DNA of 64,000 nt, from positions 2,232,001 through 2,296,000 of the forward strand of contig NZ_CP046654.1 of the NCBI RefSeq assembly GCF_009759685.1, given 5' to 3'. Positions within the stretch are counted from its first letter, which is position 1; every line of letters begins with the position of its first letter. The translations under genes were made by a program, and so were the position numbers. The notes below the pieces were generated by a model. It did not search any database. It worked only from the letters and a program-made list of their open reading frames with translations, and was not told where the DNA came from. Shown here one piece after another: positions 28,083-50,493 of the stretch. Source of the DNA: Acinetobacter baumannii (GTDB taxonomy: Bacteria; Pseudomonadota; Gammaproteobacteria; Pseudomonadales; Moraxellaceae).

Positions 28083-28633
28083 ACGCCATAACCCATTTCG
28101 ATTTTAAATCCAGATCTGTTCGTATTGTCCTAGATGATAATCAAGAACCGTGGTTTTGTTTAACCGATGTATGTAAGGCTTTAGACATTTCAAGATCATC
28201 TGATTTATTACAGATTCAAAGGGGGGACGTTAAAAACGAAACCCCTAAGCGAAATGGCGCATTAGATTCAAAGGGTGTGGCGGATTACCACACCCCTACA
28301 AATGGCGGTATTCAAAAACTCAAATTTATTAATGAGCCGAATTTATATCGCATCATCTTTCGATCTAATAAAACCGAAGCGTTGAATTTCCAAAACTGGG
28401 TATTTGCTGAGGTATTGCCGTCAATTAGAAAAACCGGTTCATATTCTGCTAGACAGTCAGCTTATGAAGAATTGAACCGTTTATGTATGCAAGAGAAAGT
28501 ATCTAAGGATAAAGGTACATTTCATAGTTTAGGTATGCACCGCCGTAAATATGAAAAGCATTTAAACGCCAAGCGTATCCAAACATGCAAAGCAAATTTA
28601 CAGATTGCTTTTGAGGGGGTACACCATGAATAA
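28079..28633 (+). CDS. Bro-N domain antirepressor-like protein
   Basis: A 184-residue protein with an N-terminal Bro-N domain: FDFKSRSVRIVLDDNQEPWFCLTDVCKALDIS..., then INEPNLYRIIFRSNKTEALNFQNWVFAEVLPSIRKTGSY. Bro-N proteins are DNA-binding antirepressors in phages. The short C-terminal extension is basic and unclassified. Coupled on both sides by overlaps. Confidence 0.82.
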   Translation: MNAITHFDFKSRSVRIVLDDNQEPWFCLTDVCKALDISRSSDLLQIQRGDVKNETPKRNGALDSKGVADYHTPTNGGIQKLKFINEPNLYRIIFRSNKTEALNFQNWVFAEVLPSIRKTGSYSARQSAYEELNRLCMQEKVSKDKGTFHSLGMHRRKYEKHLNAKRIQTCKANLQIAFEGVHHE

Positions 28634-32848: not shown

Positions 32849-34291
32849 ATGTCAGAACAGCAATTAAGAAAAGTTAAGGGAATTTGGTGTAAATTTAACA
32901 ATCAAAATAGAATGTCAACGGTTACCCTTGATGAGATGCGTATATGTTGTATAAAAAGGGGGATAGAGATTATTGAGATTGAAGAATGTACTTTTGGTTT
33001 TAACCAAAGCATTCCAGCAATTAAGATTTCAATTGTAAACAATGTAACGGCTTTATTACCTCGACAGAAACTATCAGAAATTCAAATTTATCAGAACAAT
33101 ATTATACCATTCCAAAAACAAGAAGAATTCTGGGCTAAAGTAGACTGGTTCCCACCAGTCTTTATGAATCGAGAACAAATAGGTGAAGGCTTTAAAGTAG
33201 CTAATTTGAAAATTGGTTACCACGAGTTTTTGCCTAAAGAGGAGTTACAAAAACGTTTTCAAGAGTTTTTCCCGACTGTATATAATTTCTCCAACATTAT
33301 TCCCATCACTGTACAAACTTTTTCAGACTCAATAGCTATATCAAAGCATGTACCATTAATTAAAGAATCAATTTTAGCTTTTTATAGCGGAATGAGAGTA
33401 GCTTCTATAGCATCCTTAATTCCGATGATCGAAGATATTTTAAATACTATCATTGAGGATTCCTTTGAGAATCTTGATTTAAAAACTAAAGTTGATCGAT
33501 GCATAAAACGTGCTAAACACAATATAAAACATGATCATATATTAGGTGCAGATTGGATTCCCGAAGAGTATGTTCAAGATGATGTGCTGAAAGTAATGAA
33601 TGTGCGTATTAGAATTATTGAACTAATAGGTAATTGGCTTAAAAATAGTTTTTATGAGAATACCGAAAACTACCAAAATACTTCAGGATTTAATCGACAT
33701 TTTTTTGCTCATGCTAAATCTGAAATTTGGCAAAATCAGTCTAATTTTTTTCGCGCCATGGGTCTAATTCAAGCATTGGCATTTATTGAATGTTTTGCCA
33801 TGAAAGAGTCTAAGTTATCAATTTTCCCACCAACTCCAGATATAAGATCAGAATCTTTTCGTAACGATGTTTTTGCTTGCTTAAATTTACAAGTCATCAA
33901 AAATACTCTTTTGCAGCAATTACAAATCGATGGGTGCTTACCTTTCAACCCAACAGCTTCAGATGATGGTTGGTTAGGTCGCTCTGCAACTTTATCAACT
34001 AAAATGAATGATGAAATAGTTAAAAGACTTAGAGATAATGGATGGCAATGTCATTCTTTTGGGCAACCTGTTAAATCTGGTGGATATATAACAGTAAGAG
34101 CATCAAAGCTTGGTAAAGAAATTGGTATAGCTCTATTGTATAGTTGTGCTACAGATAATAAAGTTTATAAAGAGTTGGAAGTAACAAATGATTATATTCT
34201 CTATCAAGGAGCACCTTATCAACAAGAATCATTTGCATATGGAATCAACAAGTATGTGGGTCCATTGAATGCTTGGTTAGCTCCGGATTAG
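32849..34291 (+). CDS. Putative HEPN-type cargo protein (possible anti-phage RNase)
   Basis: A 480-residue protein without a named family that I can assign. Residues about 180-300 are helical and contain FNRHFFAHA, an R-x4-H motif with a polar residue after Arg, typical of HEPN ribonucleases. The C-terminal quarter (WLGRSATLSTKMNDEIVKRLRDNGWQCHSFGQPVKSGGYITVRASKLGKEIGIALLYS) looks like a separate alpha/beta domain. It lies alone between ssb fragments in a mobile element, the usual place for defence cargo. AAGGTTAGTT precedes the ATG. Base use is more AT-rich than the replication genes. Confidence 0.55.
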   Translation: MSEQQLRKVKGIWCKFNNQNRMSTVTLDEMRICCIKRGIEIIEIEECTFGFNQSIPAIKISIVNNVTALLPRQKLSEIQIYQNNIIPFQKQEEFWAKVDWFPPVFMNREQIGEGFKVANLKIGYHEFLPKEELQKRFQEFFPTVYNFSNIIPITVQTFSDSIAISKHVPLIKESILAFYSGMRVASIASLIPMIEDILNTIIEDSFENLDLKTKVDRCIKRAKHNIKHDHILGADWIPEEYVQDDVLKVMNVRIRIIELIGNWLKNSFYENTENYQNTSGFNRHFFAHAKSEIWQNQSNFFRAMGLIQALAFIECFAMKESKLSIFPPTPDIRSESFRNDVFACLNLQVIKNTLLQQLQIDGCLPFNPTASDDGWLGRSATLSTKMNDEIVKRLRDNGWQCHSFGQPVKSGGYITVRASKLGKEIGIALLYSCATDNKVYKELEVTNDYILYQGAPYQQESFAYGINKYVGPLNAWLAPD

Positions 34292-34355
34292 AGAAATTCT
34301 CACGAGAAAAATTGTATTTGGATATTAATATTGTACTTAAGCACCAGATTGGTAA

Positions 34356-34446
34356 GTAACAGAGATTAGGGCAGATGTGTTGCAGTTGCTTTGATTAGTC
34401 CGTATAAGTCCGTATTAGTCTATATCAGTGCATATTTTTGTATCAT
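34356..34446 (+). repeat. ssb 3' remnant plus 10-base tandem repeats, copy 1
   Basis: Bases 34359-34394 encode TEIRADVLQLL and a stop, the tail of an SSB-like protein. They are followed by four tandem ~10-base words (AGTCCGTATA, AGTCCGTATT, AGTCTATATC, AGTGCATATT). A homologous block occurs at 36779-36866. The 342-base gap 34292-34633 otherwise holds only a terminator. Confidence 0.7.
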
Positions 34447-34594
34447 CCAATTGCAAATAAGCCCCATATGATTAATAATATGCTTGTAGTAACGGAGATG
34501 TTATAAATAATCAGCCTAGAGCAATTGCGATAAATGCCGTTATGATCGTAAGCGTTCTGTAAGTTCGCCAATACTAGGTTACACGCCGTATCTT

Positions 34595-34617
34595 AAAGCC
34601 CATTCGTGGGCTTTTTG
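34595..34617 (+). terminator. Terminator just upstream of the DUF3800 gene
   Basis: AAAGCCCA / TGGGCTTT stem with TTCG loop and T5, ending 17 bases before the ATG, the same layout as before the alpA-like gene. Confidence 0.65.
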
Positions 34618-34633
34618 TCTTTCTGGGGATTAT

Positions 34634-35308
34634 ATGATTGCCATCTATTTAGATGAAAGCGGTGATTTAGGTTGGACTTTTACAGCCCCATACGGGAAAG
34701 GTGGGTCAAGTAGAACTCTCACAATAGCATGTGTGATTTGCCCAAGAGATAAGACAAAGCATCTTAATCGAATTGTGACTGGATTTTATAAAGCTAGAAA
34801 ACGCCCTCTCAATAATGAATTAAAATCATATGATCTTAGCTCAAAAGAAAAAGAACAATTTGTTCAACAAATTATCAAATTGCATTCAAACCACCCAGAT
34901 ATAAAATTGCTATCCATAACCGTAAACAAAAAACGGGTAAAAACAAAATTAAGAAATGACCCTAATGCCCTATATAACTATATGGTTAAAAATATGCTCT
35001 TAAACCATTTATGCAATCATAAGCATATAGACTTCATTCCTGATTCTCGATGTGAAAAAGTCAATGTAGGCTGGAATTTAGAAATATATTTAAAACAGAT
35101 GATTGCAGAGCGTTCGCAATTAGATGATGTTCTAAATGAAACTTTGAATGTTAAACCATTCGATAGCCGAGTAACGAAAGAACTTCAATTCATAGACTTC
35201 TATGCGGGGCTTGTTTGGAGTAAATATGAGTTTAAAGACGAGCGTGTAGATCAATATTTTGATGTCGCAAATCCATCTAATCAATTGATGTTCTTTGAGT
35301 ATCAATAA
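34634..35308 (+). CDS. DUF3800 domain protein
   Basis: A 224-residue protein with the DUF3800 signature: IAIYLDESGDLGW at the N-terminus, then FIPDSRCEK and an acidic FIDFYAGLVWSKYE near residues 178-192. The DES and later Asp/Glu suggest an RNase H-like metal site. DUF3800 genes are frequent in phage and defence islands; the activity is not settled. Its stop overlaps the next start by one base. First gene of cargo module 2. Confidence 0.8.
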   Translation: MIAIYLDESGDLGWTFTAPYGKGGSSRTLTIACVICPRDKTKHLNRIVTGFYKARKRPLNNELKSYDLSSKEKEQFVQQIIKLHSNHPDIKLLSITVNKKRVKTKLRNDPNALYNYMVKNMLLNHLCNHKHIDFIPDSRCEKVNVGWNLEIYLKQMIAERSQLDDVLNETLNVKPFDSRVTKELQFIDFYAGLVWSKYEFKDERVDQYFDVANPSNQLMFFEYQ

Positions 35309-35496
35309 TGAAAGCATTTTTTAGAAGTGTGAGCCTTGCCCCTATCCGTAAAGCAAATCAGAACATGATTGATGGGAAAAGGGCGGATGTATTGAGCCTA
35401 CCAACAAGTATCCAGCAAGATATCTTGAATCGCCGTTATTCTGCGGATGAGATTAATAGTGCTTATGCTAGAGCTATTAGTAAAAGAGAAAATTAA
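35308..35496 (+). CDS. Small partner of the DUF3800 protein
   Basis: A 62-residue basic protein with no known domain, translationally coupled to DUF3800 (TAATG overlap). The C-terminal SADEINSAYARAISKREN is helical. Possible antitoxin or cofactor; this is inference from the arrangement only. Confidence 0.55.
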   Translation: MKAFFRSVSLAPIRKANQNMIDGKRADVLSLPTSIQQDILNRRYSADEINSAYARAISKREN

Positions 35497-35551
35497 CCCT
35501 CCAAACAAAATCAACAAATAGCAAATTAAGAAAATCACTTAGAAGGTATCT

Positions 35552-35641
35552 ATGGGCAAAATAGAAAAAATTTATGAAAATTTAAAAACTAATAATGAAA
35601 ACCTGCCGCAAGAGGTTCATTTTTTTTCAATTGGCTATTAA
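35552..35641 (+). CDS. Short coupled upstream reading frame (29 aa)
   Basis: ATG with GAAGG 7 bases upstream encodes 29 residues (MGKIEKIYENLKTNNENL...), and its TAA overlaps the start of the 35641 gene by one base. The good ribosome site belongs to this frame, and the downstream gene has none of its own. It may be a leader peptide or a coupled small protein. Confidence 0.45.
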   Translation: MGKIEKIYENLKTNNENLPQEVHFFSIGY

Positions 35642-36216
35642 TGAGCAATTTAGAAATAATTACAGAATCAAGATTCACAACTGTTTTTATCATAAAAATG
35701 TTATATGCATTTATGTGTGGAGCTCACCTAGATAGTATTATTAATGAAATTAGGGAATTAGAAAAACCAAGTAAAAATTATAAACGAATGAAGCCTGCAA
35801 CGAAATTCATTAAACAGCCCCTAGAAGGGTTATGGCATAAGCATTATGAGCAGGTCGGGCTTAAATCTATGGCAATGAATATTAAGCAGCAGATGGGATT
35901 GAATAATAAGCAGCAGAAGATATTCAATAATACTTTTTTTAAAGAATTTTGCGATATATTCAATAACTCTGAAATTCCTCAGGATAAAAGAATTGAAGCC
36001 TTAGGATACTTGTGTTCTGGGAAGCAATATATAGATAGAATTAATGATGGAAAGTTAACTGGTGAGTGGATTATTTACCATCATTGCAATGGGAAAAATT
36101 ATTACTTAAATGTTGGGAATCATAGCGATGGCGATGATGCTTTGGCACAAGAAATAAGAGAAATAGCACTTTTTGAATTCCCTTTTTTTAAAGGGAGTTT
36201 ACCTATCTTCGATTAA
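35641..36216 (+). CDS. Hypothetical cargo protein
   Basis: A 191-residue basic protein without recognised family. It has an N-terminal hydrophobic helix (VFIIKMLYAFMCGAHLDSIINEIREL), a lysine-rich middle and a C-terminal EWIIYHHCNGKNYYLNVGNHSDGDDALAQEIREIALFEFPFF. His/Asp residues near 150-166 could bind metal. Last gene of cargo module 2; function unknown. Confidence 0.55.
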   Translation: MSNLEIITESRFTTVFIIKMLYAFMCGAHLDSIINEIRELEKPSKNYKRMKPATKFIKQPLEGLWHKHYEQVGLKSMAMNIKQQMGLNNKQQKIFNNTFFKEFCDIFNNSEIPQDKRIEALGYLCSGKQYIDRINDGKLTGEWIIYHHCNGKNYYLNVGNHSDGDDALAQEIREIALFEFPFFKGSLPIFD

Positions 36217-36262
36217 TAGTGTCTGATTAAAGGCTATTGAATAATTAAGTTTCAGGCACCTT

Positions 36263-36384
36263 GAATTTAGGTTGACGGCATACGATAGAAATTAGGCAAT
36301 AAATACCACTCAAACCTATGTATAGAAAGGCTTTAGCCCTTTTTGATAAATCCCCATTCTGTCAACCTACGTCAACCTAAATTC
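36263..36384. repeat. Unit A of the covarying repeat family (word GTCAACC)
   Basis: Left arm GAATTTAGGTTGAC (36263-36276) is the exact reverse complement of the right-arm end GTCAACCTAAATTC (36371-36384), and the right arm carries the word twice, GTCAACC-TAC-GTCAACC. The inner 84 bases share TATGTATAG.AAGGCTTTAGC and TTTGATAAATCCCC with unit C at 39.6 kb. Confidence 0.85.
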
Positions 36385-36413
36385 ATCTTAAATGGTGTAA
36401 AAACACTGTATGA

Positions 36414-36566
36414 TTTTGCTAGACAGCCTATCTTCAATTTACCTTGACGCCCCCTACAGAAAGCAACTTTATCTTTGAACAAAGGTGAAATAGGTTCTAA
36501 CCTATATAGCACAAGCTTTACGACTTTTTTGGCAAATACTATCTCGTAAGACTACGTAAGAGTAAA
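36414..36566. repeat. Unit B, mismatched unit of the family
   Basis: Left arms TTTTGCTAGAC (36414-36424) and TTTACCTTGAC (36438-36448) are 13 bases apart. The right arm is GTAAGAC-TAC-GTAAGAG-TAAA (36546-36566), which does not match either. The partner of GCTAGAC is found 3.3 kb away in unit C (39740-39756), so the unit appears split by the cargo module between them. Confidence 0.6.
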
Positions 36567-36657
36567 TGTCTTTAAATTCTCCTTTGAAGGCTGACTAAAT
36601 TTTTCCATTCATTTTTTAATTTTGTATGACCATGTATAACAAAAAGAGATAACTTTA

Positions 36658-36849
36658 ATGGCACAGAATCAGCAGCAACGGACGTTTAGCAAATATCTCA
36701 AGAATGGCAGTAAGGCATATATTGAGGGTTCATTGTGTACTGGGAAGTGGAAAGACTAAAAATGGCATAGTTCGAGAGGTAACAGAGATTCGGGCGGATG
36801 TATTGCAATTGTTTGGATTATTTTTATTAGACCATATTGGTGCATATTA
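36658..36849 (+). pseudogene. SSB-like 3' fragment, copy 2
   Basis: The frame from 36658 reads FSKYLKNGSKAYIEGSL...GKWKD then stop. In another frame NGIVREVTEIRADVLQLF continues. Both match the C-terminal OB-fold strands of SSB (AKYLKKGSKVYIEGSL, TEI.AD..Q.L). It is a decayed remnant between cargo modules 2 and 3. Confidence 0.75.
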
Positions 36850-36866
36850 GTTCATATTTTTGTATT
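36779..36866 (+). repeat. ssb 3' remnant plus 10-base tandem repeats, copy 2
   Basis: Homologue of 34356-34446: GTAACAGAGATT.GGGC.GATGT.TTGCA then ~10-base words (AGACCATATT, GGTGCATATT, AGTTCATATT) and TTTGTAT. It marks the boundary between cargo modules. Confidence 0.7.
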
Positions 36867-36880
36867 CACTAATTGAAATA

Positions 36881-36932
36881 TATTCACAAGTGAATACAAT
36901 AGGATAAAAAGTTAACACTCTTATAGTGTTAA
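36881..36932. promoter_or_regulatory. Two palindromes upstream of the NdpA-like operon
   Basis: TATTCACAAGTGAATA (36881-36896) and TTAACACT / AGTGTTAA with a CTTAT loop (36912-36932). Possible operators. The following 36933-37189 stretch shows only a short AGCCC/GGGCT hairpin. Confidence 0.45.
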
Positions 36933-37189
36933 ACCTTATTTAGCCCTAGTGAATGGGCTTTATAGCTTCTGAAGAATATTGGAGTACTCCTTTAAAGAGG
37001 CCTTATAAGAATTATTTAAGATCAAACATATGAGGGGGCTCATGAATGGTTGAACATCTAAAGATATATCGAGTTTCTATTAAAGCATGTAATACCTATG
37101 GCTGAATTCCCTATAGGGTAGGGGGGTTATTCCATCTATTGATTTAAAGAACTTTCACTGAATCTAATTATTTACTCTAGAGATGTATC

Positions 37190-38236
37190 ATGTCTATCCA
37201 ACATATTATTGTTCACGAAATTCGACGCGTTAAAGAAGAAAAAAAAAGTACAGAAACATTAATTGCTAAGATCAAAGATACAGAGAATGATTTAAGATCA
37301 TTAAATGGTGAATTAGCAGCAAAATTATTAAAACTTTTTTCTAGTTCTAGTTTAATGGTAGGACAGTTTTCTATTGGGAATGATACAGAAAAGAAACCAG
37401 CCTTTGAACAAGGGTTAGATAATTTTTATTCTGGTGAAAATTGTCTAGACTTTGTTGAAATGACAAGAGAGTTGGCAGAATACTTTAAAACTTTTCTTGT
37501 TGAAAATAAAAGTATTACTGGTGGTTTTCTTGTTTTTTTTGAGTTTAAAGGTGATGAACATACCAAGTTAGCAGTTGCTGTAATTAATAAATCGAATGCG
37601 ACTGACATTAATCCTGATCTTAATTTTATTGCCAAAGAAATTCTGGATCTAGATAAATTGCATTTGGGTGCAACAATCAATATTACAGAGTGGCGTGATG
37701 AGTTTTCGGAACGATATATTCGTTTTAAAAATGGTCAGTCAGAACAGGTAACTGATTATTTTCAAAAATTTATTGGTTGTGAAGTCGATAAACAAGCTGC
37801 AAATGAAGAAACAAAGAAATTAAAAGAAGCTATTGAATCCTTTGCTACTGAGAAACTTAAACTATCCCAAACTGCTGCAGATGACTATCTTGCTTTAGCC
37901 CACTCATATATTAATGATTGTATAACCAAAGGTGACGATGTTGTTTTGTCGAATGTAGCAAAACATGTTTTTCCTGCTGATAGTAATGAGTTTTTTGAAT
38001 ATGCAAGCGAAGGGCATAATTTGTCAGGAATTTTGCAAATAAGTAAAACAGAATTAAAGGGATTTAAGAAATTTAGTAGTAGCCGAAAGGACCTTTCAAT
38101 TACTTTTGCAAAAGCTTTGCTGAACGATAAAATTAAATTTGAAAATGATATACTCAAGATCGACAGCTCATTACTGTCGGATAGTTTGGTAGCAGAACTT
38201 AAAGCAGCTACAACAGCAAGCAATTCAGATGAATAG
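37190..38236 (+). CDS. NdpA/YejK-family nucleoid-associated-like protein
   Basis: A 348-residue protein with the NdpA layout: IIVHEIRRVKEEKKS at the N-terminus, SSSLMVGQFSIG, FFEFKGDEHTKLAVAVINKSNATDINPDLNFIAKEILDLDKLHLGATINI..W and the typical C-terminal YF..F.GC region. Chromosomal YejK binds DNA and topoisomerase IV. Here it is paired, 2 bases apart, with a membrane protein in a mobile element, which suggests a sensor or DNA-binding component of a defence-like system. First gene of cargo module 3. Confidence 0.75.
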   Translation: MSIQHIIVHEIRRVKEEKKSTETLIAKIKDTENDLRSLNGELAAKLLKLFSSSSLMVGQFSIGNDTEKKPAFEQGLDNFYSGENCLDFVEMTRELAEYFKTFLVENKSITGGFLVFFEFKGDEHTKLAVAVINKSNATDINPDLNFIAKEILDLDKLHLGATINITEWRDEFSERYIRFKNGQSEQVTDYFQKFIGCEVDKQAANEETKKLKEAIESFATEKLKLSQTAADDYLALAHSYINDCITKGDDVVLSNVAKHVFPADSNEFFEYASEGHNLSGILQISKTELKGFKKFSSSRKDLSITFAKALLNDKIKFENDILKIDSSLLSDSLVAELKAATTASNSDE

Positions 38237-38238
38237 AA

Positions 38239-39444
38239 ATGACTATGAATCCAGTACAAATTTATCGTGACATCTTTCTGTCTATGCAAGACAGACAGGA
38301 AAGTTGTGACCAATTTGTAAGCTGGATGGAACTAGATGCAGACAAACTTGCTTCTCTAAAAGCTTTAAATGCATACTCATTGGCTGCTGGCAGCCTTGAT
38401 GTAAAAGTTGAAGGGAAGCAACGTGGATCAGGCGTAGATTTAGAGAGAATTCAAAGCAGTCAATTTAATAGTAAATACATTTTTGAAGTTAAATTAAATA
38501 AAACTAATATTAATTTGGGACACGATTTCATTGTTTGTGATAGCTGGAATACAGTTCTTAAATACGAACATTATATAAAGAATCCTATAAAGAAAATTTT
38601 TTTAACAGATGTCGAAGATTATTTTGATATTGACTCTAGTGATAGTAAATATAAAAATTATCTTGCCATGGGTGAACTATATTCATTCATTAAATTTTTG
38701 TCTGAGGAGTCTAATGCAGACAAAGATTGTATTTTTTATAATCGTAGTTATAAGTTTAAAATTAAAGCTTGTGAAGATGATTTAAATTATCCGATTGATA
38801 CTAAAAGCTTAGGTAAGTTCAAACATCAAGATATGCACCGAGAGGCTATTATTAATCTGATGTGCAAAGAATTAACGTCTTTTGTTAAAGACGAAATTGA
38901 AGATGTTAGATTTAGCTATCTTATTCGTAACTTGAATCCCTTGATTACGAATATCAATCATAGTTATCAAAGCTATGTAGAGGATTATACCTTTGATAAG
39001 GTGAGAAAAGAGTATAAAGAAAAGAAAACTGAATACATCAAAAAATTGAATGATACTTTCGATTCTGTCGCTACAAAAATGTTTGCAATACCAGCAGGTA
39101 TTTGGTTCGCTACAGCCCAAATGACTACCATGAAAACTATTAGTAGTTTTATATATACCAAAAACTTCATTGTATTAATGACCGTTTTATCAATGATATT
39201 TATTATGATTCTTAATGTACATGGGCAACGTAATACACTTAATCAAGTGAAAGAAGAGTATTTAGATATTTTTGATGAATTAGAAAAAAAATTTGAAGAT
39301 GTAGATGCAGAAATTAGAAAAATAAAAGGTGAAGTAAATGATAAGTTCGATAGAGTAATGTCTTACATTTATGTGGCGATTATTATTTGTGTTGCATTAG
39401 GTGTGTATACGGCATACCTTTTTTATCAAAGTAGTATTCTCTAG
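38239..39444 (+). CDS. Membrane protein partner of the NdpA-like protein
   Basis: A 401-residue protein. The N-terminal ~270 residues are soluble with no recognised domain (KYIFEVKLNKTNINLGHDFIVCDSW may be a nuclease-like or beta-rich core). The C-terminal third has hydrophobic segments at about 282-297, 314-334 and 377-397, with a charged coiled coil (NQVKEEYLDIFDELEKKFEDVDAEIRKIKGEVNDKF) between the last two. Such a soluble-domain-plus-membrane design is typical of abortive-infection effectors. The short spacing to the NdpA-like gene implies a two-gene unit. Confidence 0.6.
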   Translation: MTMNPVQIYRDIFLSMQDRQESCDQFVSWMELDADKLASLKALNAYSLAAGSLDVKVEGKQRGSGVDLERIQSSQFNSKYIFEVKLNKTNINLGHDFIVCDSWNTVLKYEHYIKNPIKKIFLTDVEDYFDIDSSDSKYKNYLAMGELYSFIKFLSEESNADKDCIFYNRSYKFKIKACEDDLNYPIDTKSLGKFKHQDMHREAIINLMCKELTSFVKDEIEDVRFSYLIRNLNPLITNINHSYQSYVEDYTFDKVRKEYKEKKTEYIKKLNDTFDSVATKMFAIPAGIWFATAQMTTMKTISSFIYTKNFIVLMTVLSMIFIMILNVHGQRNTLNQVKEEYLDIFDELEKKFEDVDAEIRKIKGEVNDKFDRVMSYIYVAIIICVALGVYTAYLFYQSSIL

Positions 39445-39448
39445 AAAT

Positions 39449-39474
39449 AAAAAAGCCCTGAAAGGGCTTTTTTA
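39449..39474 (+). terminator. Terminator of cargo module 3
   Basis: AAAAAGCCCT / AGGGCTTTTT stem with GAA loop and T6, right after the membrane protein gene. Confidence 0.88.
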
Positions 39475-39620
39475 TAGATCAGTATTTATAAAAAGAGAAA
39501 TCCACTATTTGAAAATTAAAATATGATGTAACCAGATTGTGAAACTAGAATTTTCCCTCTAAATGCCACTTTTAAAGTGTAAACAAGTGACAATTTTAGC
39601 GATAAAAAGTGTGGCTATTT

Positions 39621-39760
39621 AAATTTAGATAGACGGCCTTTGGTAGTAATTAGACTTTAAATTTCAATCAAACCCATGTATAGCAAGGCTTTAGCTAATT
39701 TTGATAAATCCCCGTTCTGTCAACCTAAAAAATGATTTCGTCTAGCTACGTCTAGCAAAA
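39621..39760. repeat. Unit C of the covarying repeat family (word GTCTAGC)
   Basis: Left arm AAATTTAGATAGAC (39621-39634). The inner part is homologous to unit A and ends with a single GTCAACCTAAA (39719-39729), then GTCTAGC-TAC-GTCTAGC-AAAA (39740-39760). The latter pairs exactly with TTTTGCTAGAC of unit B rather than with its own left arm (one mismatch, GATAGAC). Confidence 0.7.
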
Positions 39761-39841
39761 CTTGGCCACATTTTAAATTGCTTCAAGTTGTGTGCCATTT
39801 CCACCAATCCGTCTAAAAATAATAGTAAAAATAGCCATGTA

Positions 39842-40014
39842 TTTTGTTGTACAAGACAGGTGCAATTTACTTGGACAACTTTATGTTTTAAACCACATCC
39901 AAATTTAGTGGAAAGCCTTATAGACCGAGCATCAAGGGGATTTTAGAGAGGGCTATAAAATGAAGTTTTGTCCAAGTACGTCCAAGTAAATCCGTACAGC
40001 TACGTACAGCAAGA
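39842..40014. repeat. Unit D, nested double unit (words GTCCAAG and GTACAGC)
   Basis: Left arms TTTTGTTGTAC (39842-39852) and TTTACTTGGAC (39866-39876). Right arms GTCCAAG-TAC-GTCCAAG-TAAA (39970-39990), TCC, then GTACAGC-TAC-GTACAGC-AAGA (39994-40014). Inner pair exact over 11 bases; outer pair has one mismatch within the 7-base word. Confidence 0.82.
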
Positions 40015-40033
40015 TAGGAAAAAAGAGATTAAA

Positions 40034-40206
40034 TCTTGTTATACAAGATACAAGCAATTTACCTTGACAGACCGATATTTAAAACAGCCTGCCTATTCAG
40101 CTAAAGGCCTTATCAATAATGAAGCACAGTCAATTTTAGTAAAGTTTTAAAAGTGATATTTCGTCAAGGTACGTCAAGGTAAATCCGTATAACTACGTAT
40201 AACAAA
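40034..40206. repeat. Unit E, nested double unit (words GTCAAGG and GTATAAC)
   Basis: Left arms TCTTGTTATAC (40034-40044) and TTTACCTTGAC (40058-40068), again 13 bases apart. Right arms GTCAAGG-TAC-GTCAAGG-TAAA (40163-40183) then TCC then GTATAAC-TAC-GTATAAC (40187-40203). Both 7-base words match their inverted partners perfectly. Confidence 0.85.
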
Positions 40207-40312
40207 TTTAGATTGTTGAATCGGAAATTCACCCTTATAGATTTGAAATCTAATAGGGAGATTTCTATATCTCTTAATCTATAGCATTACGTATCACAAA
40301 ATAGCCTTAAAT

Positions 40313-40425
40313 CTTGTTGGACAAGGCAAACTAAAAAGCCCTTAAAAAACCAACTCAAATCTAAGCTATATAGGGAGTATAGCGATTCAAATAGAACCTT
40401 GTTTTGTCCAACTACGTCCAACAAG
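40313..40425. repeat. Unit F (word GTCCAAC)
   Basis: Left arm CTTGTTGGAC (40313-40322). Right arm GTCCAAC-TAC-GTCCAAC-AAG (40406-40425). Exact 10-base inverted match. Confidence 0.82.
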
Positions 40426-40546
40426 TAAAGCGGATTTGTCGTTCTAGGGGCATGCAATATTCCCCAGTAATCAATTAAAAAACATGCCTAAAAACATGGA
40501 TAGTTTTCTATTCCATCAACGTGAATGGCTTATTTCATCTAATTAA

Positions 40547-40650
40547 TTTTTGCTTTACGGCGTATTTATGAAAAATGCCATCTATGCCAGTCATAGCAAG
40601 GCATACAGGAATTTAATGAAATTGATTTCGTAAAACTACGTAAAACAAAA
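40547..40650. repeat. Unit G (word GTAAAAC)
   Basis: Left arm TTTTTGCTTTAC (40547-40558). Right arm GTAAAAC-TAC-GTAAAAC-AAAA (40630-40650). One mismatch between the arms. Confidence 0.7.
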
Positions 40651-40688
40651 CGGCCTTAAATTATTCTTTACAACGTTTATTCAGCTAT

Positions 40689-40798
40689 CCTTGATAGGAC
40701 ACCAGTAGAAAGACCATTAAAATGGCCTTGAAGCTATATACAACAAGGTTTATCGCTATTTTAAGGAATCTCATTTCATCAAGGTACATCAAGGGAAA
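40689..40798. repeat. Unit H (word ATCAAGG)
   Basis: Left arm CCTTGAT (40689-40695). Right arm ATCAAGG-TAC-ATCAAGG (40778-40794). Exact word match, with both right copies carrying the same A-for-G change seen in the left partner. Confidence 0.75.
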
Positions 40799-41590
40799 CA
40801 TGTCTATAAAGCTTCATCACTGGCGAAAGTTAAAAAACAATTCCACGTTTTAAATACAGTGCCTTACTACGAGAAATTCGTAGTAGCTACCTAGATAAAA
40901 GATTACGTTTTATTAAGAGCAAATGATAAGAAATGATAAGGTTTTATCGGGTTTTAGGTGCGTCCAATGCCGGATTAACATTTAAAACCAAAGGTGAGCG
41001 CAAAATTGCGTTGGCTAATCCATGTTTTAAAAGCAAAGCTCAAAATTGAGCAACGGTATTCAACAAAGCGCAAAATCGCGTTTTGCAACAAACACGCGCG
41101 CGCGAGAGGGATGCTTCAAATATGGTTTTAAGGCTTAAAATCCCAATAGAACTACAGTGCGATTATTCGGGCGGTTTACTTCTGCAAATAACCTGAACAT
41201 AGGGATACCCCCCACCATCTAAATCCTCAACTTCGGCAATGTACACGCGACTGGATGCACGTATCTGCAATCGAAAGTATTTCGTGATTTTTATAACTTG
41301 CTCACACTTAAAACGCGACCAAGCTACTTAATCAGCCACTTGAACGGCTAAGTTAATTCAAGATTTAAAATCCAATCACCAAATATGGTTTTGCGCTCAA
41401 TAAATTTATTGAAGCCAAATAACGAGCCTCATAATCCGATCCACTAAAAGGAGTGTTTTTAACTCCTGAGTTCGTCACCCAGCATGACAACTAAACTCAG
41501 AGAAATGCCCTAGTAACAAATAATTTGTACACTATTGTGTACACTGTTATTTTTTGAATTGAAATTAACTTTAAAAAACAATTATTTGTT
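40799..41590. other. Non-coding right part of the element
   Basis: No supported gene. It contains a hairpin CTACGA/TCGTAG (40868-40884), three short palindromes CGCAAAATTGCG (40999), GCTCAAAATTGAGC (41038) and GCAAAA-TCGCG-TTTTGC (41070), a CGCGCGCGCG run near 41096, and a GGAGT/ACTCC hairpin near 41450. Confidence 0.5.
41526..41551. repeat. GTGTACAC motifs at the right end of the element
   Basis: TTGTACACTATTG and TGTGTACACTG in tandem mirror the motifs at 25454-25494 by the integrase, supporting this as the other end of the element. Confidence 0.5.
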
Positions 41591-41596
41591 TTATCA

Positions 41597-41616
41597 GTTC
41601 AATTGACGCCATCCCA
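41597..41616. other. Probable attR
   Basis: CGCCATCCCACCAAG resembles the tmRNA 3' end CGCCATCTCCACCAA. It is followed within 15 bases by a strong terminator that would fit the original ssrA downstream region. Confidence 0.5.
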
Positions 41617-41628
41617 CCAAGATTCGAA

Positions 41629-41664
41629 AAAGCCCTGAAACGTAAGTTTCGGGGTTTTTTCTTT
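41629..41664 (+). terminator. Terminator, probably the displaced ssrA terminator
   Basis: CCCTGAAAC / GTTTCGGGG stem with GTAA loop and T6CTTTTT. No gene precedes it closely on the plus strand. Confidence 0.75.
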
Positions 41665-41676
41665 TTAAGATTCAAA

Positions 41677-44600
41677 TTATTAAATCATTTGTGCAATGAC
41701 GAACATAAAGACTATTGGGGCTGCAAATCCTACTTGTTTCTAAATCATCTGAGCAATGAGCAACCTTCCGATAACAAACACACGGCGTCGTCGTTGTTTC
41801 TAAATCATCTACACGATGAGCAACAAAAACCGTTTATTCAATCACTGTAGATGATCTTTCTAAATCATCTATGCGATGACGAACCCACTTTGTAGATATG
41901 GTTTTATCTGGATAATTTTCTAAATCATCTAGGCGATGAGCAACTTAAATAGAGTCATGGTCACGCTCATAGAATCTTTCTAAATCATCTGGACGATGAG
42001 AAACAAGACCGTATTGGTGATTTTCAGCAAACTGGTTTCCTAAATCATCTGTGCGATGACGAACGAGCGCCAAATTCTGAATGCCCTGAATGTCAATATC
42101 AATACTCAGCGTACATTTCTAAGTCATCTATGCGATGAAGAACCGCAAGATGCGTGTAAAAGGCTACGTGATGAATTTCTAAATCATCTAGGCGATGACG
42201 AACAAATTAAATGCTCAGATAGCTAAAACTATTTGTTGCTAAATCATCTGGGTGATGAACAACAATATGTTAGCCAATATCTCGTTTGATGCTGCTTTCT
42301 AAATCATCTGAGCGATGACGAACATTGGCTGGATTGTCCATATTATTCAAACGATTTTCTAAATCATCTAGGCGATGAGAAACCAGTAGACACCGCCTAC
42401 AGGTAACACCGTCTATTTCTAAATCATCTGGGCGATGAAGAACCTTGCAGATAGATCAATTGATAATTTGCTCATTTTCTAAATCATCTATGCGATGAAG
42501 AACCCGCACAAGAGATTATTAACGATGTGTCTCTTTTTCTAAATCATCTATGCGATGAAGAACATTTGTAGATGCTGGGCCGATAGAATTTCCTATTTCT
42601 AAATCATCTATGCGATGAAGAACGCTATGTGACGCTTTATCAAAGTAAATGGCTTTTTCTAAATCATCTGGGCGATGAGCGACGAAGAAAGTGATGGTCA
42701 TATCTTCAGTGAGATTTTCTAAATCATCTGAGCGATGATCAATATATTGGATTAAAGTCCATCATTAGAAGACGTTTTCTAAATCATCTAAGCGATGAGC
42801 AACAAAATGGCTACAAGCTCATTAAATCATTTGAATTTCTAAATCATCTTGCAATGAGCAACTCCATTAGCTACAGAAATAGTTGAGCATTTAATTTCTA
42901 AATCATCTACGCGATGAGGAACGCGTGGGCTAAAAGCCAATTCGCACTAATACCTTTCTAAATCATCTGGGCGATGAGCAACTGTAACGTAAATCTTCTG
43001 AACTTGACCCCTGTTTTCTAAATCATCTATGCGATGAGTAACGTGAAAATCGATATTGATAAATTAGCAAAACATTTCTAAATCATCTATGCGATGAAGA
43101 ACTTGCTGTAATTAATTTTATGGCTTGGTGTTTTTTTCTAAATCATCTATGCGATGAAGAACAGAAGTTAAAGCAGAAAGTAAGGAGGGGTAATTTTCTA
43201 AATCATCTATGCGATGAAGAACTGGACGTTGACCCCGAAGGGGAATGCTGAACTTTTCTAAATCATCTATGCGATGAAGAACGTAGGTAGTTTCAACCCA
43301 TTCAACATTATCTATTTCTAAATCATCTATGCGATGAAGAACCTGTTTCTCACCCGGATTAAATGAGCTGTCTATTTCTAAATCATCTATGCGATGAAGA
43401 ACCTGAAGCTGAACGTCAAAAACATTTAGATGAATTTCTAAATCATCTATGCGATGAAGAACTACGAAGATGGCTTTTAAGTTTTTCCACGAGGTTTCTA
43501 AATCATCTATGCGATGAAGAACAAAGAACACTTTCATTGCCATGCCTGTGTAATTTTCTAAATCATCTATGCGATGAAGAACATTGTACTGATTTATTAA
43601 CCGTATAAACAAAATTTCTAAATCATCTGTGCGATGAAGAACTAGCAGTTGATTTAGCGATTAAGGCTTTGATTTTTCTAAATCATCTATGCGATGAAGA
43701 ACCACAAGTTTAGCAGGTAACTTAATTTTACCGTTTTCTAAATCATCTATGCGATGAAGAACGGGCTTTAGTTGCATTATCACGTCGTATTGTATTTCTA
43801 AATCATCTATGCGATGAAGAACGCCCAAGCAATTACTTCTTGATCTCGGTTAAATTTCTAAATCATCTATGCGATGAAGAACAATCATGGCTTGAGTGGG
43901 CGCAGGCACACCAATTTCTAAATCATCTATGCGATGAAGAACCTTGGCTGGGGTAATTCTTTTGAATTTTGCTTTTTCTAAATCATCTATGCGATGAAGA
44001 ACAGGAGCATCAAGTCTAGCCGAGGCTGGTGAATTTTCTAAATCATCTATGCGATGAAGAACGCAGCAAAAGCAGAGTCTTCAATCCAAAGGGTTTTCTA
44101 AATCATCTATGCGATGAAGAACGTACCTCATCAATAAAAATAACAGATGTTTCTTTTCTAAATCATCTATGCGATGAAGAACATTACAGTCACCTTTGTT
44201 TTCCAAGCTTTCTATTTCTAAATCATCTATGCGATGAAGAACTGTTCCAGATGTGCAGTCAAATGTTTGTATTGTTTCTAAATCATCTATGCGATGAAGA
44301 ACAAACTCAGACTATTAAACAAGATCGCCGTGTATTTCTAAATCATCTATGCGATGAAGAACAAAGAAACGAGCGAATTTCTTTGGGTCTTTTTTTTCTA
44401 AATCATCTATGCGATGAAGAACTCAACGTTACTCGATTGAAATGATACTACTGTTTTCTAAATCATCTATGCGATGAAGAACTAACAATCATTTTACTGA
44501 CTTGGGAAGCAGTATTTCTAAATCATCTATGCGATGAAGAACACTTGCAATGAATTTCTATGTGAAGCATGGAATTTCTAAATCATCTATGCGATGAAGA

Positions 44601-45614
44601 ACTTGCTCATATGGCTAACGTTCAATGGGTGGTATTTCTAAATCATCTATGCGATGAAGAACATTCTAATTCTGGCAAGCATGGCAAGGGTAAATTTCTA
44701 AATCATCTATGCGATGAAGAACGGGAGTCTGCATTGCTTGGTGCCTCTGATCTTTTTCTAAATCATCTATGCGATGAAGAACTCCAAGACCAAAATGATT
44801 TCTTTAATGGGATTTTTCTAAATCATCTATGCGATGAAGAACATAGGCAAAGCAGGCAATTGCTCAGCTTTCTTTTTCTAAATCATCTATGCGATGAAGA
44901 ACTTGTTCAGACATTTGCTACTCCCTCACTCATATTTCTAAATCATCTATGCGATGAAGAACCCTATTTAAAACTAGATGTAGAGCTTCCTACTTTTCTA
45001 AATCATCTATGCGATGAAGAACGAACTCTGATAGCTTCATTGGCGTATCGATACTTTCTAAATCATCTATGCGATGAAGAACCATTTGAACCATCTGGCA
45101 TGTGTTTTTCTAAATCATCTATGCGATGAAGAACTGAACTAGCAGATACATGTGATGGCTTGTACCTTTCTAAATCATCTATGCGATGAAGAACCGTAGT
45201 TATTAGCCTGATATCGTTCCAATTGATTTCTAAATCATCTATGCGATGAAGAACGAACTCTGATAGCTTCATTGGCGTATCGATACTTTCTAAATCATCT
45301 ATGCGATGAAGAACAAAAACCGTAGACTACGCCTTGTGACCGAGTTTTTCTAAATCATCTATGCGATGAAGAACATTTTTGAAGTATCTACCTCATAAGG
45401 CTTATTTTTCTAAATCATCTATGCGATGAAGAACTTCAGGAAGGCTTAGAACGTAATCCAGTGAATTTTCTAAATCATCTATGCGATGAAGAACAGATAC
45501 ACGAACACTATAAAACTTCTCTTGATTTTCTAAATCATCTATGCGATGAAGAACTTAACGTAGAACGTACAGAGTACCAGCGTTACTTTCTAAATCATCT
45601 ATGCGATGAAGAAC
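41677..45614 (-). CRISPR. Type I-F CRISPR array, 66 repeats / 65 spacers
   Basis: 28-base repeats at 60-base period. The transcribed (minus) orientation begins GTTCTTCATCGCAT and ends GATGATTTAGAAA, with the TCATC/GATGA hairpin cut by Cas6f. Repeats from about 43075 to 45614 are nearly identical. Those at 41677-43000 carry many changes, so the leader is at the high-coordinate end beside cas1. Most spacers are 32 bases. Exceptions are 51 bases (42065-42115), 24 bases (45083-45106) and one repeat shortened to 27 bases (42836). One spacer occurs twice. Confidence 0.97.
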
Positions 45615-45711
45615 TAGAGTTAAGTTAAAACAAAACTCTTAAAATCAATTATATAAGTTTTTAATGAGTGAAAATACTTCGTTATAAGGTATTTGGGTTA
45701 AATGTATGATT
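45615..45711 (-). promoter_or_regulatory. CRISPR leader
   Basis: A 97-base AT-rich segment between the newest repeat and the cas1 stop codon. It should hold the array promoter and integration-factor sites. The array may also be read through from the cas operon, since no terminator is visible. Confidence 0.65.
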
Positions 45712-46665
45712 TTATTTGATTTTACTACATATGTCAGTAATGAAGCTAAACATGTAATCTAAAATATCTTGGTCTTGGCATGTTTCAATAAGCTGCATTC
45801 GGAATTCTTTTTGATTTAATCCTTTTGCTGCACATGTAAAAGCGACTGGCATAACAAAAGCATCTTTAACTAGGTCCGCTAGGTCAAAGACTAGACCTCC
45901 ACGACGTGTTTTACCGTGCAAAATAGGGAGGGCAAAACTAATTCCCATTCCATTTAAAGCAACTGCTGCATAGCCATAGGCAATATAGTTTCCATGATCA
46001 AGGTAGCTGTTGGCTATATCCGCAATAGAGTCTTGAGAGTTTTTTCCTTCATCACGAATAAATTCAACTCCAAAGCCTTTAGCAAGTTGTTTGTATAACG
46101 TTTTAGCCCAACGTCCCTCGGCTGCAAGTAATTCCTGTAGATTTTCGGAGCGATCAATATCTTGTTTGAATGTGTTTAAAGCATTTTCATCAATATAAAT
46201 ACCAGATTGAATCAAATCAAAATTCTTTTTCCATGATTGTGATACGAGGGCAATACGTTCAAGTAATAATATTTTTGCCATGAGTAAGCGTGCGTCATCT
46301 TCTAACCATGCTCTCATCCAGATTTGCATATATTCAGTGGGGCGATATTCACTTTGGGGCGCTAAAAATGTTAAATCTAATGATGAAAATAAAGGGGAAC
46401 CGCCGGAACCGCAAAACCCAACCATGACATTAGATTCCGCTAAACGTCTGGCAGCCGCATCTGTTAATGAGCTGCCTTTGCCAAGTAGTAAAAAGGCGGT
46501 GTTTTTCTCTGGAATATTATAAAAATATTCCACAGGTTGTGAGTTCTCCGTCAAGTAAACAATTCGATCATCTTTTAAAACGACACGAACTTTTTCTAGG
46601 TAAAATACGCAGGCACGCTTTGAAAGCATAAGTGGGCGGCTGCGTTCTTGACGGAGTTGACTCAT
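45712..46665 (-). CDS. cas1: Cas1, type I-F adaptation integrase
   Basis: A 317-residue Cas1f: RPLMLSKRACVFYLEKVRVVLKDDRIVY, LLLGKGSSLTDAAARRLAESNVMVGFCGSGGSPLF and the helical catalytic part with VEFIRDEGKNSQDSIADIANSYLDHGNYIAYG and LPILHGKTRRGGLVFDLADLVKD (His and Asp/Glu metal ligands). It integrates spacers with Cas2-3. AAGGAAAT is its ribosome site, 11 bases after cas6f. In most I-F loci cas1 precedes cas2-3; here it is last in the effector operon, next to the leader. Confidence 0.95.
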   Translation of the reverse strand: MSQLRQERSRPLMLSKRACVFYLEKVRVVLKDDRIVYLTENSQPVEYFYNIPEKNTAFLLLGKGSSLTDAAARRLAESNVMVGFCGSGGSPLFSSLDLTFLAPQSEYRPTEYMQIWMRAWLEDDARLLMAKILLLERIALVSQSWKKNFDLIQSGIYIDENALNTFKQDIDRSENLQELLAAEGRWAKTLYKQLAKGFGVEFIRDEGKNSQDSIADIANSYLDHGNYIAYGYAAVALNGMGISFALPILHGKTRRGGLVFDLADLVKDAFVMPVAFTCAAKGLNQKEFRMQLIETCQDQDILDYMFSFITDICSKIK

Positions 46666-46676
46666 ATTATATTTCC

Positions 46677-47285
46677 TTAAAAGACGGGTAGGGCAAAAGG
46701 ACTTTCCTTACGGGCAAGCCCATAGCTATCTGGCAGCCCGTATCCCGCGTTTTCACTCTCCTGAACATCAATAATGACTGTAAAACCATGACCTGTACTA
46801 CTGACCACCTGAAAGAAGGGCATTCCTTTGGCCGTTTTTAAGCGTCTATCTCTTAAAGGTTCATTTTGGTGGGAAAGCTTAGTACGTTCAGATTTCAGAG
46901 TTGGAATACGAAACTTTCGATAACTTTTCCAACCAGAAATTTTGGCAGTAGGAACAGGAATTGCGGCACCTAAAACGGTATAGTCGCGAATTTTCCAGTG
47001 TCCTTTAATTGCCTCGATTAACTCATCTAACTCATCCTGTTTTTCAGCAAAAATTCGCAAAATATCAAAGTTAGGTTTAGCCGAACGACCATGTTTTTTT
47101 TCAAATTGTTCCTGCTTCGCTTTCAATTTATCAGATATCTCTAGTGCAAGAGCGTAATGCGCAGGCAGTTTCCGAAAAGCACCATGAATGACGGTGTAAA
47201 TTTGATTACGAATATGACCAAGTTTTAAATCCGTATCGTCTGATGACTCAAGAACACGGATATCCAGATAGTAATTGGCATCCAT
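46677..47285 (-). CDS. cas6f: Cas6f (Csy4) crRNA endonuclease
   Basis: A 202-residue Cas6f: MDANYYLDIRVLESSDDTDLKLGHIRNQIYTVIHGAFRKL with the probable catalytic His34, then RDRRLKTAKGMPFFQVVSSTGHGFTVIIDVQE and an arginine-rich helix. It cleaves each repeat 3' of the TCATC/GATGA hairpin and stays bound. It lies 2 bases downstream of cas7f. Confidence 0.95.
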   Translation of the reverse strand: MDANYYLDIRVLESSDDTDLKLGHIRNQIYTVIHGAFRKLPAHYALALEISDKLKAKQEQFEKKHGRSAKPNFDILRIFAEKQDELDELIEAIKGHWKIRDYTVLGAAIPVPTAKISGWKSYRKFRIPTLKSERTKLSHQNEPLRDRRLKTAKGMPFFQVVSSTGHGFTVIIDVQESENAGYGLPDSYGLARKESPFALPVF

Positions 47286-47287
47286 GA

Positions 47288-48349
47288 TTATTCACCCTCG
47301 GAGTACACGCCACCACGAATTAAACAGGCAATTAGGAACATACCTTTTTCGCTGTTTGGATCAAGCTCATCAATTTCTTTTAAAATATCGAATGCAGAAA
47401 CTTTGTCTTTACCTACGCGATAGAAAATCTGACCTTCTAGGTTTGCACCGTTAGGCTCTACCGCAATTGGTTTCTCATCGTTTTCTTTAAACAATGGATA
47501 CCAGGTATCAATTGTTCTTAGAGCATTTCCAATTTTTTGGTCACGTAAAGCAGCTTGCCCCAGATATTGGTTGTCGTTTGCTTGGTGGTCTGGTTTTTTC
47601 GGTGTTAATTGATACAGAGATCGAGAGAAACCTTTTGGTTTATCTTCTAAGTAATTTTGAGAAGGGAAAACTTCTACACCACCCATTCCGAAGTCAACAA
47701 TCGCTTCAATATGTAGTGCTGCACTTGTGGATTCACCTGTAATTCCTTTTAATAAAATTTCTGCTAGTTTTTGTTCTTGTTCAGACGGTTGATCAAAACT
47801 TTTAAGGTTATAAGAAAGAGCATCAAAGCTAAATATTTCAGGGTAGTCTTGAGCAGTCACTTGAATGGTAATGCTTTCAGCAACAATACGGTTACGCCAT
47901 AACCAGCGACCATTCACGATATTACGTACATAACGACGCACAACTTCTTTTAGTCCATCGCTTTCTTTGGCACGATTTACAAAATTTAAGAACGCTTGGC
48001 GGAAATTATATTCTTCGGTTTTGTCAGCACCAGCTTTAGACGCACTTGCAAACAGTACATAGCTCAAGTCAATAAAACGAAAGTCCCATTTCACCAAAAG
48101 TTTAGCTTTAGGTTGTAATTTCGCAGATTCGGTAAGCTGAATATTGGTGACTTCACGAGCAAGAGAGTTGCCTGTTGCAGCACCTTTTTCTTTATTACCT
48201 GCTACGTTTTGAGTCCCTCGAATTCCGTGATACATCACATGTAACGGCTCTTGTTTACCATCTTCAAATAAATTAAAAAAAGCCCCATCACTCACCACTG
48301 TACCGCGTTGTAAAGAAAGGCTGCCCGGTAATTTCTTAAAAATTGTCAT
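47288..48349 (-). CDS. cas7f: Cas7f (Csy3) backbone subunit
   Basis: A 353-residue Csy3: LPGSLSLQRGTVVSDGAFFNLFED..EPLHVMYHGIRGTQNVA, RNIVNGRWLWRNRIVAES and the C-terminal FDILKEIDELDPNSEKGMFLIACLIRGGVYSEGE. Six copies coat the crRNA in the Csy surveillance complex. In the minus-strand effector operon. Confidence 0.95.
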   Translation of the reverse strand: MTIFKKLPGSLSLQRGTVVSDGAFFNLFEDGKQEPLHVMYHGIRGTQNVAGNKEKGAATGNSLAREVTNIQLTESAKLQPKAKLLVKWDFRFIDLSYVLFASASKAGADKTEEYNFRQAFLNFVNRAKESDGLKEVVRRYVRNIVNGRWLWRNRIVAESITIQVTAQDYPEIFSFDALSYNLKSFDQPSEQEQKLAEILLKGITGESTSAALHIEAIVDFGMGGVEVFPSQNYLEDKPKGFSRSLYQLTPKKPDHQANDNQYLGQAALRDQKIGNALRTIDTWYPLFKENDEKPIAVEPNGANLEGQIFYRVGKDKVSAFDILKEIDELDPNSEKGMFLIACLIRGGVYSEGE

Positions 48350-48378
48350 GTGAAAAATTCCTTATGTTTAAAAGCGAG

Positions 48379-49263
48379 TTATGCATTGATGCAATTTTGT
48401 TTTAAAAGAAAAATGTCGTCTTGCGGCCAGTGGTAGGTCCACAATAATTTTTGCAAGTTATGCCAAGTGTCATCCTCAGCCTCAGTATTTCTCCTTAGAA
48501 TCTCACCTAAAGAAAAATACTGAATAATGCCGGTAAGCGGTTCTGCATAGGCGTGTGCTGTATTTTCCTGATCTTGTGCTTGGCGAATACCAGCTCGTTG
48601 GTCTGTGAGTGGCTCAAGTAGGGCATAACCCAAATTAGTTGCCGATATCCAACTTAAATTTTGGTCATTAAAGAAAGCTCTAAGTGCATCTGCTTTTAAC
48701 GCCAACAGTTGGGTAAATGCCTGAACTCGATTAATTTGTTTACGTTGCTGATATTCAATAAGCAAATCTTGTCGATCTAAAATGGCAAATCCAGTTTTGA
48801 TTTTCTTTAGGGCTGTTTCTAGTTCATTTTCAGAATGTGTCGTAATTTCTAAAAACTCGATAATTTGTCCACCAGCAAAACGGCTACATTTAAGTATGTT
48901 TGTTAGTTTTTCTGGACTAATCCGAGAGCTAGAAAATTTGATAACAAGGCTAAACTCTAAATGACAAGATGCGGTTGGTTGTAAAGACAACGCGTATTTA
49001 TTTTTAGAAGAATAGTCCTTTTTACCAATAAACACGGCACCACGACGTTGAGCAGGCGTAAAGCGGCCATAGGCTTGTCCACCTAAACGCTGTTGGTCAT
49101 GATGAATATAAATAATGCCTTCTTCTTGAGTGCCTAATTGTCTTGCCAAATGATGTGCAAACATATTGGCTGCAAACAAAGGCACACCACCTAATAAGAA
49201 GCCATTAGTTTGCATATTTGCATTTTGTACTCGCATACGAGGAATAACGACATAACGACTCAT
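48379..49263 (-). CDS. cas5f: Cas5f (Csy2) subunit
   Basis: A 294-residue Csy2: VVIPRMRVQNANMQTNGFLLGGVPLFAANMFAHHLARQLG and RRGAVFIGKKDYSSKNKYALSLQPTASCHLEFSLVIKF. It caps the 5' end of the crRNA with Cas8f. Its start overlaps the cas8f stop by 4 bases (ATGA). Confidence 0.93.
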   Translation of the reverse strand: MSRYVVIPRMRVQNANMQTNGFLLGGVPLFAANMFAHHLARQLGTQEEGIIYIHHDQQRLGGQAYGRFTPAQRRGAVFIGKKDYSSKNKYALSLQPTASCHLEFSLVIKFSSSRISPEKLTNILKCSRFAGGQIIEFLEITTHSENELETALKKIKTGFAILDRQDLLIEYQQRKQINRVQAFTQLLALKADALRAFFNDQNLSWISATNLGYALLEPLTDQRAGIRQAQDQENTAHAYAEPLTGIIQYFSLGEILRRNTEAEDDTWHNLQKLLWTYHWPQDDIFLLKQNCINA

Positions 49264-50426: not shown

Positions 50427-50493
50427 TATCTTCCCCGTTTTTGTTATCTAGCCAATTTTTAACACATTATTTGAAAAATGAAAGTGTTGGAGA

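Follow-up and report, generated by a model that had tools for sequence, protein, structure and literature searches.

A directional row of putative terminase-recognition sites in a satellite-like element of Acinetobacter baumannii

Several phage satellites carry the packaging site of their helper phage: P4 has the cos of P2, and the Staphylococcus aureus pathogenicity islands (SaPI) and phage-inducible chromosomal islands (PICI) have a pac or a cos site. To our knowledge, satellites have been described with one packaging site for one helper or a few. In the phages themselves, lambda-like cosB regions contain three boxes for gpNu1 (R1 to R3), placed around a bend, and headful phages have pac sites. 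The locus considered here lies in a stretch of 64,000 nucleotides from the Acinetobacter baumannii genome GCF_009759685.1 (contig NZ_CP046654.1, positions 2,232,001 to 2,296,000; the whole stretch is called the window, and coordinates refer to it). A satellite-like integrative element in this window holds a row of repeat units, each built on its own 7-base word. The explanation proposed here, to which a probability of roughly 0.75 is given, is that each unit is the recognition site for the small terminase (TerS) of one phage group and that the array provides packaging sites for many helpers.

Repeat units of the array and their counterparts at phage terS starts

A first-pass annotation of the window had described, between 36263 and 40798, units in which a left arm carries a word in inverted form and a right arm carries the same word twice around TAC, the word changing from unit to unit. 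This description was borne out, with the arms at the positions it gave. A strict site was defined as two identical 7-base words around TAC preceded at 40-190 bp by the inverted word, in which one mismatch was allowed. Nine such sites were found, all of them on the + strand between 36263 and 40798, with none on either strand of the remaining window and none in 200 dinucleotide shuffles. When the spacer was relaxed to any three bases, there were 20 matches, compared with a mean of 0.19 and a maximum of 3 in the shuffles. The left word is identical to the right word in six of the nine strict sites and one base off in the other three, and no two of the nine words are alike. The nesting of two pairs in units D and E was also confirmed in the sequence. 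The inventory of units stood as regards the layout and had to be amended in two places. The unit at 36413-36639 (B) is degenerate, its inner left word GTCAAGG being set against GTAAGAC/GTAAGAG on the right, and the one at 39619-39761 (A'), with GATAGAC on the left, one leftover GTCAACC and then GTCTAGC twice, looks like a fused relic of two units. Left and right arms do not vary independently, and no insertion sequence or miniature inverted-repeat transposable element was met in the searches made.

The statement that no element of this design had been described needs a qualifier, because the starts of phage terS genes share the layout. Two single units of the same genome lie at the start of the prophage gene immediately before the large terminase, and this gene belongs to DUF2280, a family that some phage records label as small terminase. 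The tandem of Acinetobacter and Klebsiella phages occupies positions -29 to -13 upstream of the ATG. Their inverted word lies 96 bp further on, inside the open reading frame (ORF), and takes in a codon for Val or Ile at about residue 29; this would explain why the words begin with GT or AT. The third DUF2280 prophage of the genome (L121) has the tandem GTATCAT/GTATCAG, and GTATCAG is a tandem word in L002, one of the related loci described below.

DUF2280 is present in 88 of 149 Acinetobacter genomes. A set of 107 terS starts was assembled from 90 loci (mostly the best-scoring of 125 DUF2280 matches), 15 phage records and the two prophages of the genome itself. A tandem and an inverted box with three mismatches or fewer in total were found at 94 of them (none in 37, one in 28, two in 18 and three in 11), compared with 2 of 642 shifted control positions; among these 94 good sites, the tandem starts at -29 in 81 and the distance is 96 in 80. 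Beyond Acinetobacter, two Klebsiella phages have a clear site, and ZF40 and one Pseudomonas phage a weak one. IMG/VR was also scanned for four tandem words, and among the 247 viral stretches in the matches listed, the tandem stands at the start of terS in 236. Four others are arrays, three with satellite genes and one (L404) with none in the part present; one (L403) is a single unit with satellite genes, and six are unsupported singles, of which two lie at the end of a contig and four lack a good left arm. These occurrences are sequence counts and not proof of satellite DNA in particles.

The words of the window recur at these starts. That of unit A is also found at the terS of a prophage of the same genome (L035) and of phage 5W, and the tandem word of unit A' at the terS of another resident prophage (L034, which is also L085). 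The two words of unit D are the terS words of phages PhabP_R1 (tandem) and Ab105-1phi, and those of unit E belong to phages B1251 (tandem) and Ab105-2phi. The unit F word recurs at the terS of L159, in the inverted box and in the second copy of the tandem, that of unit G is the terS word of L088, L102 and L128, and that of unit H is the terS word of L170 and L172.

Correspondence between TerS residues and word letters

Among 88 non-redundant TerS sequences, about six of which have the word in a shifted register, there are 34 distinct words. TerS distance, calculated with residues 27-34 excluded, correlates with word distance (Mantel r 0.41), a value as high being reached in none of 2000 permutations. 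Particular residues follow particular letters: residue 39 is associated with letter 1, residue 43 with letter 3, residue 44 with letter 6 and residue 54 with letter 7. Letter 6 is G in all 34 TerS with L, N, C, V or G at residue 44, and C in 10 of 11 with K or R there; N at residue 54 goes with C as letter 7 (54/54), and D with G (20/23). By eye, different TerS backbones that share a recognition stretch also share one word, as in L034 and L137 (GTCTAGC) or in L071 and L171 (GTCAAGG). A prediction table trained on 82 of the 88 TerS was then applied to 36 unseen TerS, relatives of the training set, of which 35 were scored (L355 was skipped for a register slip), and letters 1, 6 and 7 were correct in 35 of 35 each, where the baselines were 30, 8 and 14.

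An AlphaFold2 model of TerS, obtained with 35 sequences, has a block pLDDT (predicted local distance difference test score) of 79-92 over residues 1-110 and predicted helices at 6-17, 22-33 and 39-43, which are read as a helix-turn-helix. The third of these, the predicted recognition helix, contains residues 39 and 43; residue 44 is just past it and residue 54 is in the next loop. Since the tandem is outside the ORF, the connection between TerS and word links a protein to a separate DNA site, and binding by a protein is preferred here to pairing between nucleic acids chiefly because residues track word letters outside the ORF. The site of a DUF2280 (PF10045) TerS would comprise two head-to-tail 7-base boxes 10 bp apart and an inverted box about 70-140 bp off, with one such site per phage at its own terS start. 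To judge from the sequences, TerS would bind the boxes and bridge the arms, and packaging would start at the units.

Satellite arrays and the explanations considered

Relatives of the array were found in several collections. A search of plasmids matched four records, three of them from A. baumannii, and those three share parts of the region. L002 and L003 retain part of the unit cluster beside different genes and units with the new words GTCATGC, GTCAAAC and GTATCAG; the first two have matching left arms, and GTATCAG lacks a left arm within one mismatch. A DNA search of Acinetobacter genomes gave matches in 18 of 99, some of them single units, and eight further genomes (L174-L181) have one or more units in satellite-like loci. 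All eight of these loci have, on the strand of the units and upstream of them, at least one core-gene homologue, the only one in L177 being the 103-residue protein listed in Table 1; in L182 core genes are present and no unit was called. Several satellite-like loci contain primase-helicase-like genes, of DUF927 or DUF3987. The pattern itself is matched in 72 of 175 genomes, where clusters were sorted by eye only. Weak conserved A/T stretches beside the right arm, absent from phage sites, were observed in unit interiors of L174-L181.

For the analysis of words and spacings, 57 satellite units were gathered, degenerate ones not being counted, and 42 remained after removal of near-copies. Fifteen of 19 satellite words are identical to terS words and the other four are one letter off; with shuffled columns, the mean number of identities is 7.3 and the maximum in 5000 is 14. 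The arms of the 42 units are separated by 71-72 (8 units), 82-84 (19), 92-94 (4), 105 (1), 132 (1) or 138-142 bp (9), and these distances are best fitted by a period of about 11.25-11.5 bp (R 0.84, shared ancestry uncorrected). Such steps of about 11 bp fit arms that need to face one way on the double helix; neither sites for integration host factor (IHF) nor phased A/T tracts account for a bend. By eye, the unit at position 6574 of L003 and window unit G share one interior and differ in their words, so that a word can be exchanged while the frame around it is kept.

According to the proposed mechanism, an integrative element with an integrase, a BRO protein, a DUF927 or DUF3987 protein and nearby defence cargo, in which no terS was found, would hold a row of sites, mostly one per specificity and in a single orientation, on which the TerS of any active helper phage could start packaging of satellite DNA. 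The words would covary because each unit serves a different TerS, and not as a result of RNA pairing. In phages, the direction of terS is from the tandem into the gene, and the same direction in the element would lead from the array toward the primase and the integrase. It seems probable, moreover, that the related loci belong to an Acinetobacter-wide satellite lineage with a directional keyring of about nine terminase specificities, some of them nested, in which the code names the helper of each unit.

The main competing explanation is a terminase decoy, that is, an anti-phage trait in which the array titrates the TerS of competing phages and lowers their packaging. Binding alone would suffice for this, and the presence of many specificities per element and of defence genes near arrays would be accounted for. 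However, a decoy would profit from many copies of each word, and words repeat within an element in only 1 of 41 cases, compared with a shuffled mean of 4.7 (2% of shuffles are as low, related elements included). Nor would a decoy require the maintained arm geometry or a common orientation, and strict sites are oriented with the core genes in 55 of 55 cases, which are not independent since several elements are closely related; two opposite-strand matches are ATCAACG sites read from the other strand. A decoy is therefore considered improbable.

The position of the phage tandem, just upstream of the terS start codon, suggests an operator as well: the boxes at terS would serve autoregulation, with an auxiliary operator reached by looping, and the copies in the array would control transcription of the element. 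The satellite units, however, stand in rows between genes, several of them consecutively with no intervening gene, and this makes such a role very unlikely. Even less credit is given to integron-like recombination sites delimiting mobile gene cassettes, an idea that draws on the presence of unit clusters between exchangeable cargo when the window is compared with L001-L003. The core of integron attC sites is RYYYAAC ... GTTRRRY, to which GTCAAGG, GTCAACC and ATCAAGG do not conform; the identical type of site is found at phage terS starts, and ordinary homologous recombination between arrays would account for the swaps of cargo. As for the interpretation in the first-pass annotation, its unit-specific protein sites agree with the present results, and its pairing of left and right words in a folded RNA or single-stranded DNA, suggested by complementary arms and covarying words, is unneeded, unsupported and the least plausible of all, because the protein code in phages explains the covariation, the tandem provides two copies of the word where one would suffice, the spacings step by about 11 bp, the mismatches in GTAAAAC/GCTTTAC and GTACAGC/GTTGTAC are (by eye) not wobble pairs on one common strand, and no RNA family fits, the single match to Rfam 15 in window positions 34000-45000 being far under the gathering score and outside the units.

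Several results weigh against packaging sites for many helpers. No cleavage site was identified, and neither a second copy of the tmRNA gene end within the window nor a right attachment site was found. Among the 107 terS starts, 13 have four or more mismatches (four in 8, seven or more in 5), and two other Pseudomonas phages, one Vibrio, one Burkholderia and one Salinibacter phage showed no such site. Satellite units depart from the 96-bp distance of phages, and their spacing varies. For letter 3, the held-out prediction (32/35) equals the baseline. Solved small terminases gave weak fold matches, and a sequence search against solved structures found nothing. Finally, the test on distinct words within elements is a soft one.

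The element and its relation to known systems

The features of the array and of the element are collected in Table 1. A phage satellite is expected to have an integrase and a replication gene of its own and no terminase. The element has an integrase and the DUF927 gene; none of 15 sequences searched, namely the window and 14 loci (mostly partial elements), gave a TerS homologue, and large terminase and capsid genes were sought in the ORFs scanned. The two small proteins are without a Pfam or PHROG match.

Table 1. Coordinates of repeat units and element genes in the window
Feature	Word	Position	Strand	Details
Unit A	GTCAACC	36265-36382	+	left arm ATTTAGGTTGAC, word 36270-36276
Unit A, tandem	GTCAACC	36361-36367, 36371-36377	+	flank TAAAT
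Unit B (degenerate, nested)		36413-36639	+	left arms 36413-36424, 36437-36448
Unit B, right side		36546-36562; near 36623-36639		GTAAGAC-TAC-GTAAGAG; GTATGAC-CAT-GTATAAC
Unit A'	GTCTAGC	39623-39761	+	left word GATAGAC 39628-39634; tandem 39740-39746, 39750-39756
Unit D (nested), outer	GTACAGC	39841-40015	+	left 39846-39852; tandem 39994-40010
Unit D, inner	GTCCAAG		+	left 39870-39876; tandem 39970-39986
Unit E (nested), outer	GTATAAC	40033-40208	+	left 40038-40044; tandem 40187-40203
Unit E, inner	GTCAAGG		+	left 40062-40068; tandem 40163-40179
Unit F	GTCCAAC	40311-40427	+	left 40316-40322; tandem 40406-40412, 40416-40422
Unit G	GTAAAAC	40547-40651	+	left GCTTTAC 40552-40558 (one mismatch); tandem 40630-40636, 40640-40646
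Unit H	ATCAAGG	40684-40799	+	left 40689-40695; tandem 40778-40784, 40788-40794
Transfer-messenger RNA (tmRNA) gene		24983-25342	+	adjoins integrase; probable integration site, left end of element
Tyrosine integrase		25468-26751	+	integrase of the element
BRO-N protein		28079-28633	+	anti-repressor-like
Small protein, 103 residues		29004-29315	+	homologues near arrays in other genomes
Small protein, 98 residues		29412-29708	+	homologues near arrays in other genomes
DUF927 protein, 829 residues		29696-32185	+	primase/helicase-like

The sequence of the tmRNA end, CCCGCCATCTCCACC, has a second exact copy far from the window (G000 C1:86577), perhaps the attachment site of another element. A 480-residue protein encoded at 32849-34291, with no Pfam, PHROG or PADLOC match, has homologues in L001 and L182 that likewise lie next to an element of this kind. 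Between the two unit clusters lies a gene pair (37190-39444) for a 37-kD nucleoid-associated (NA37) protein and a 401-residue protein, also present in VB1190; the pair has no PADLOC match, and the 401-residue partner has no Pfam match.

About 880 bp following the array are common to the window, VB1190 (L001), G062 (L181) and L202, and beyond them the neighbours diverge: in the window there is a type I-F CRISPR-Cas locus (clustered regularly interspaced short palindromic repeats) and in VB1190 a KAP NTPase. The type I-F locus (41677-54662), directly downstream of the units, comprises a CRISPR array at about 41.7-43 kb with many variant repeats and, after it, cas1, cas6f, cas7f and cas8f on the - strand and cas2-3 on the + strand. 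PtuA (Septu), Dsr1 and a type I methyltransferase are encoded near other arrays. Three large adjoining genes near a unit in L175 (721-7875; 663, 876 and 842 residues) have no PADLOC match, and the 663- and 876-residue proteins have no Pfam match either.

If the units do serve as packaging sites for different helpers, the helper range of such an element could be predicted by reading its array letter by letter against the resident terminases, and the arrays would illustrate a way for defence cargo to be carried along by many phages. The pairs of TerS and word would also constitute a natural data set on how terminases change their DNA specificity, and DUF2280 (phrog_546), listed as being of unknown function, would gain a concrete putative role.

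Like P4, SaPI and PICI, the element is small and integrative, with an integrase, a primase-helicase, nearby defence cargo and a phage packaging site, here a candidate one; where they have one site, it has at least nine different ones, arranged in a directional row. Apart from integrase and primase, none of the hallmark genes of P4 or PICI was identified; the P4 marker genes are Psu, Delta, Epsilon and AlpA, and these names did not appear in the chosen set of ORFs that was scanned. The phage sites resemble cosB and pac in having repeated TerS boxes at terS, two in one direction and one inverted, partly within or beside the terS ORF. In contrast to those systems, the present words change between phages along with the recognition helix of TerS and, unlike the case of cosB, no IHF site is enriched between the arms of satellite units. 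A further likeness is to the phages with DUF2280 (Vieuvirus and others), whose terS starts have the identical layout and words. In these phages there is one site, fused to the start of terS, with a coding inverted box mostly at 96 bp, whereas the satellites have many sites, with different interiors and spacings.

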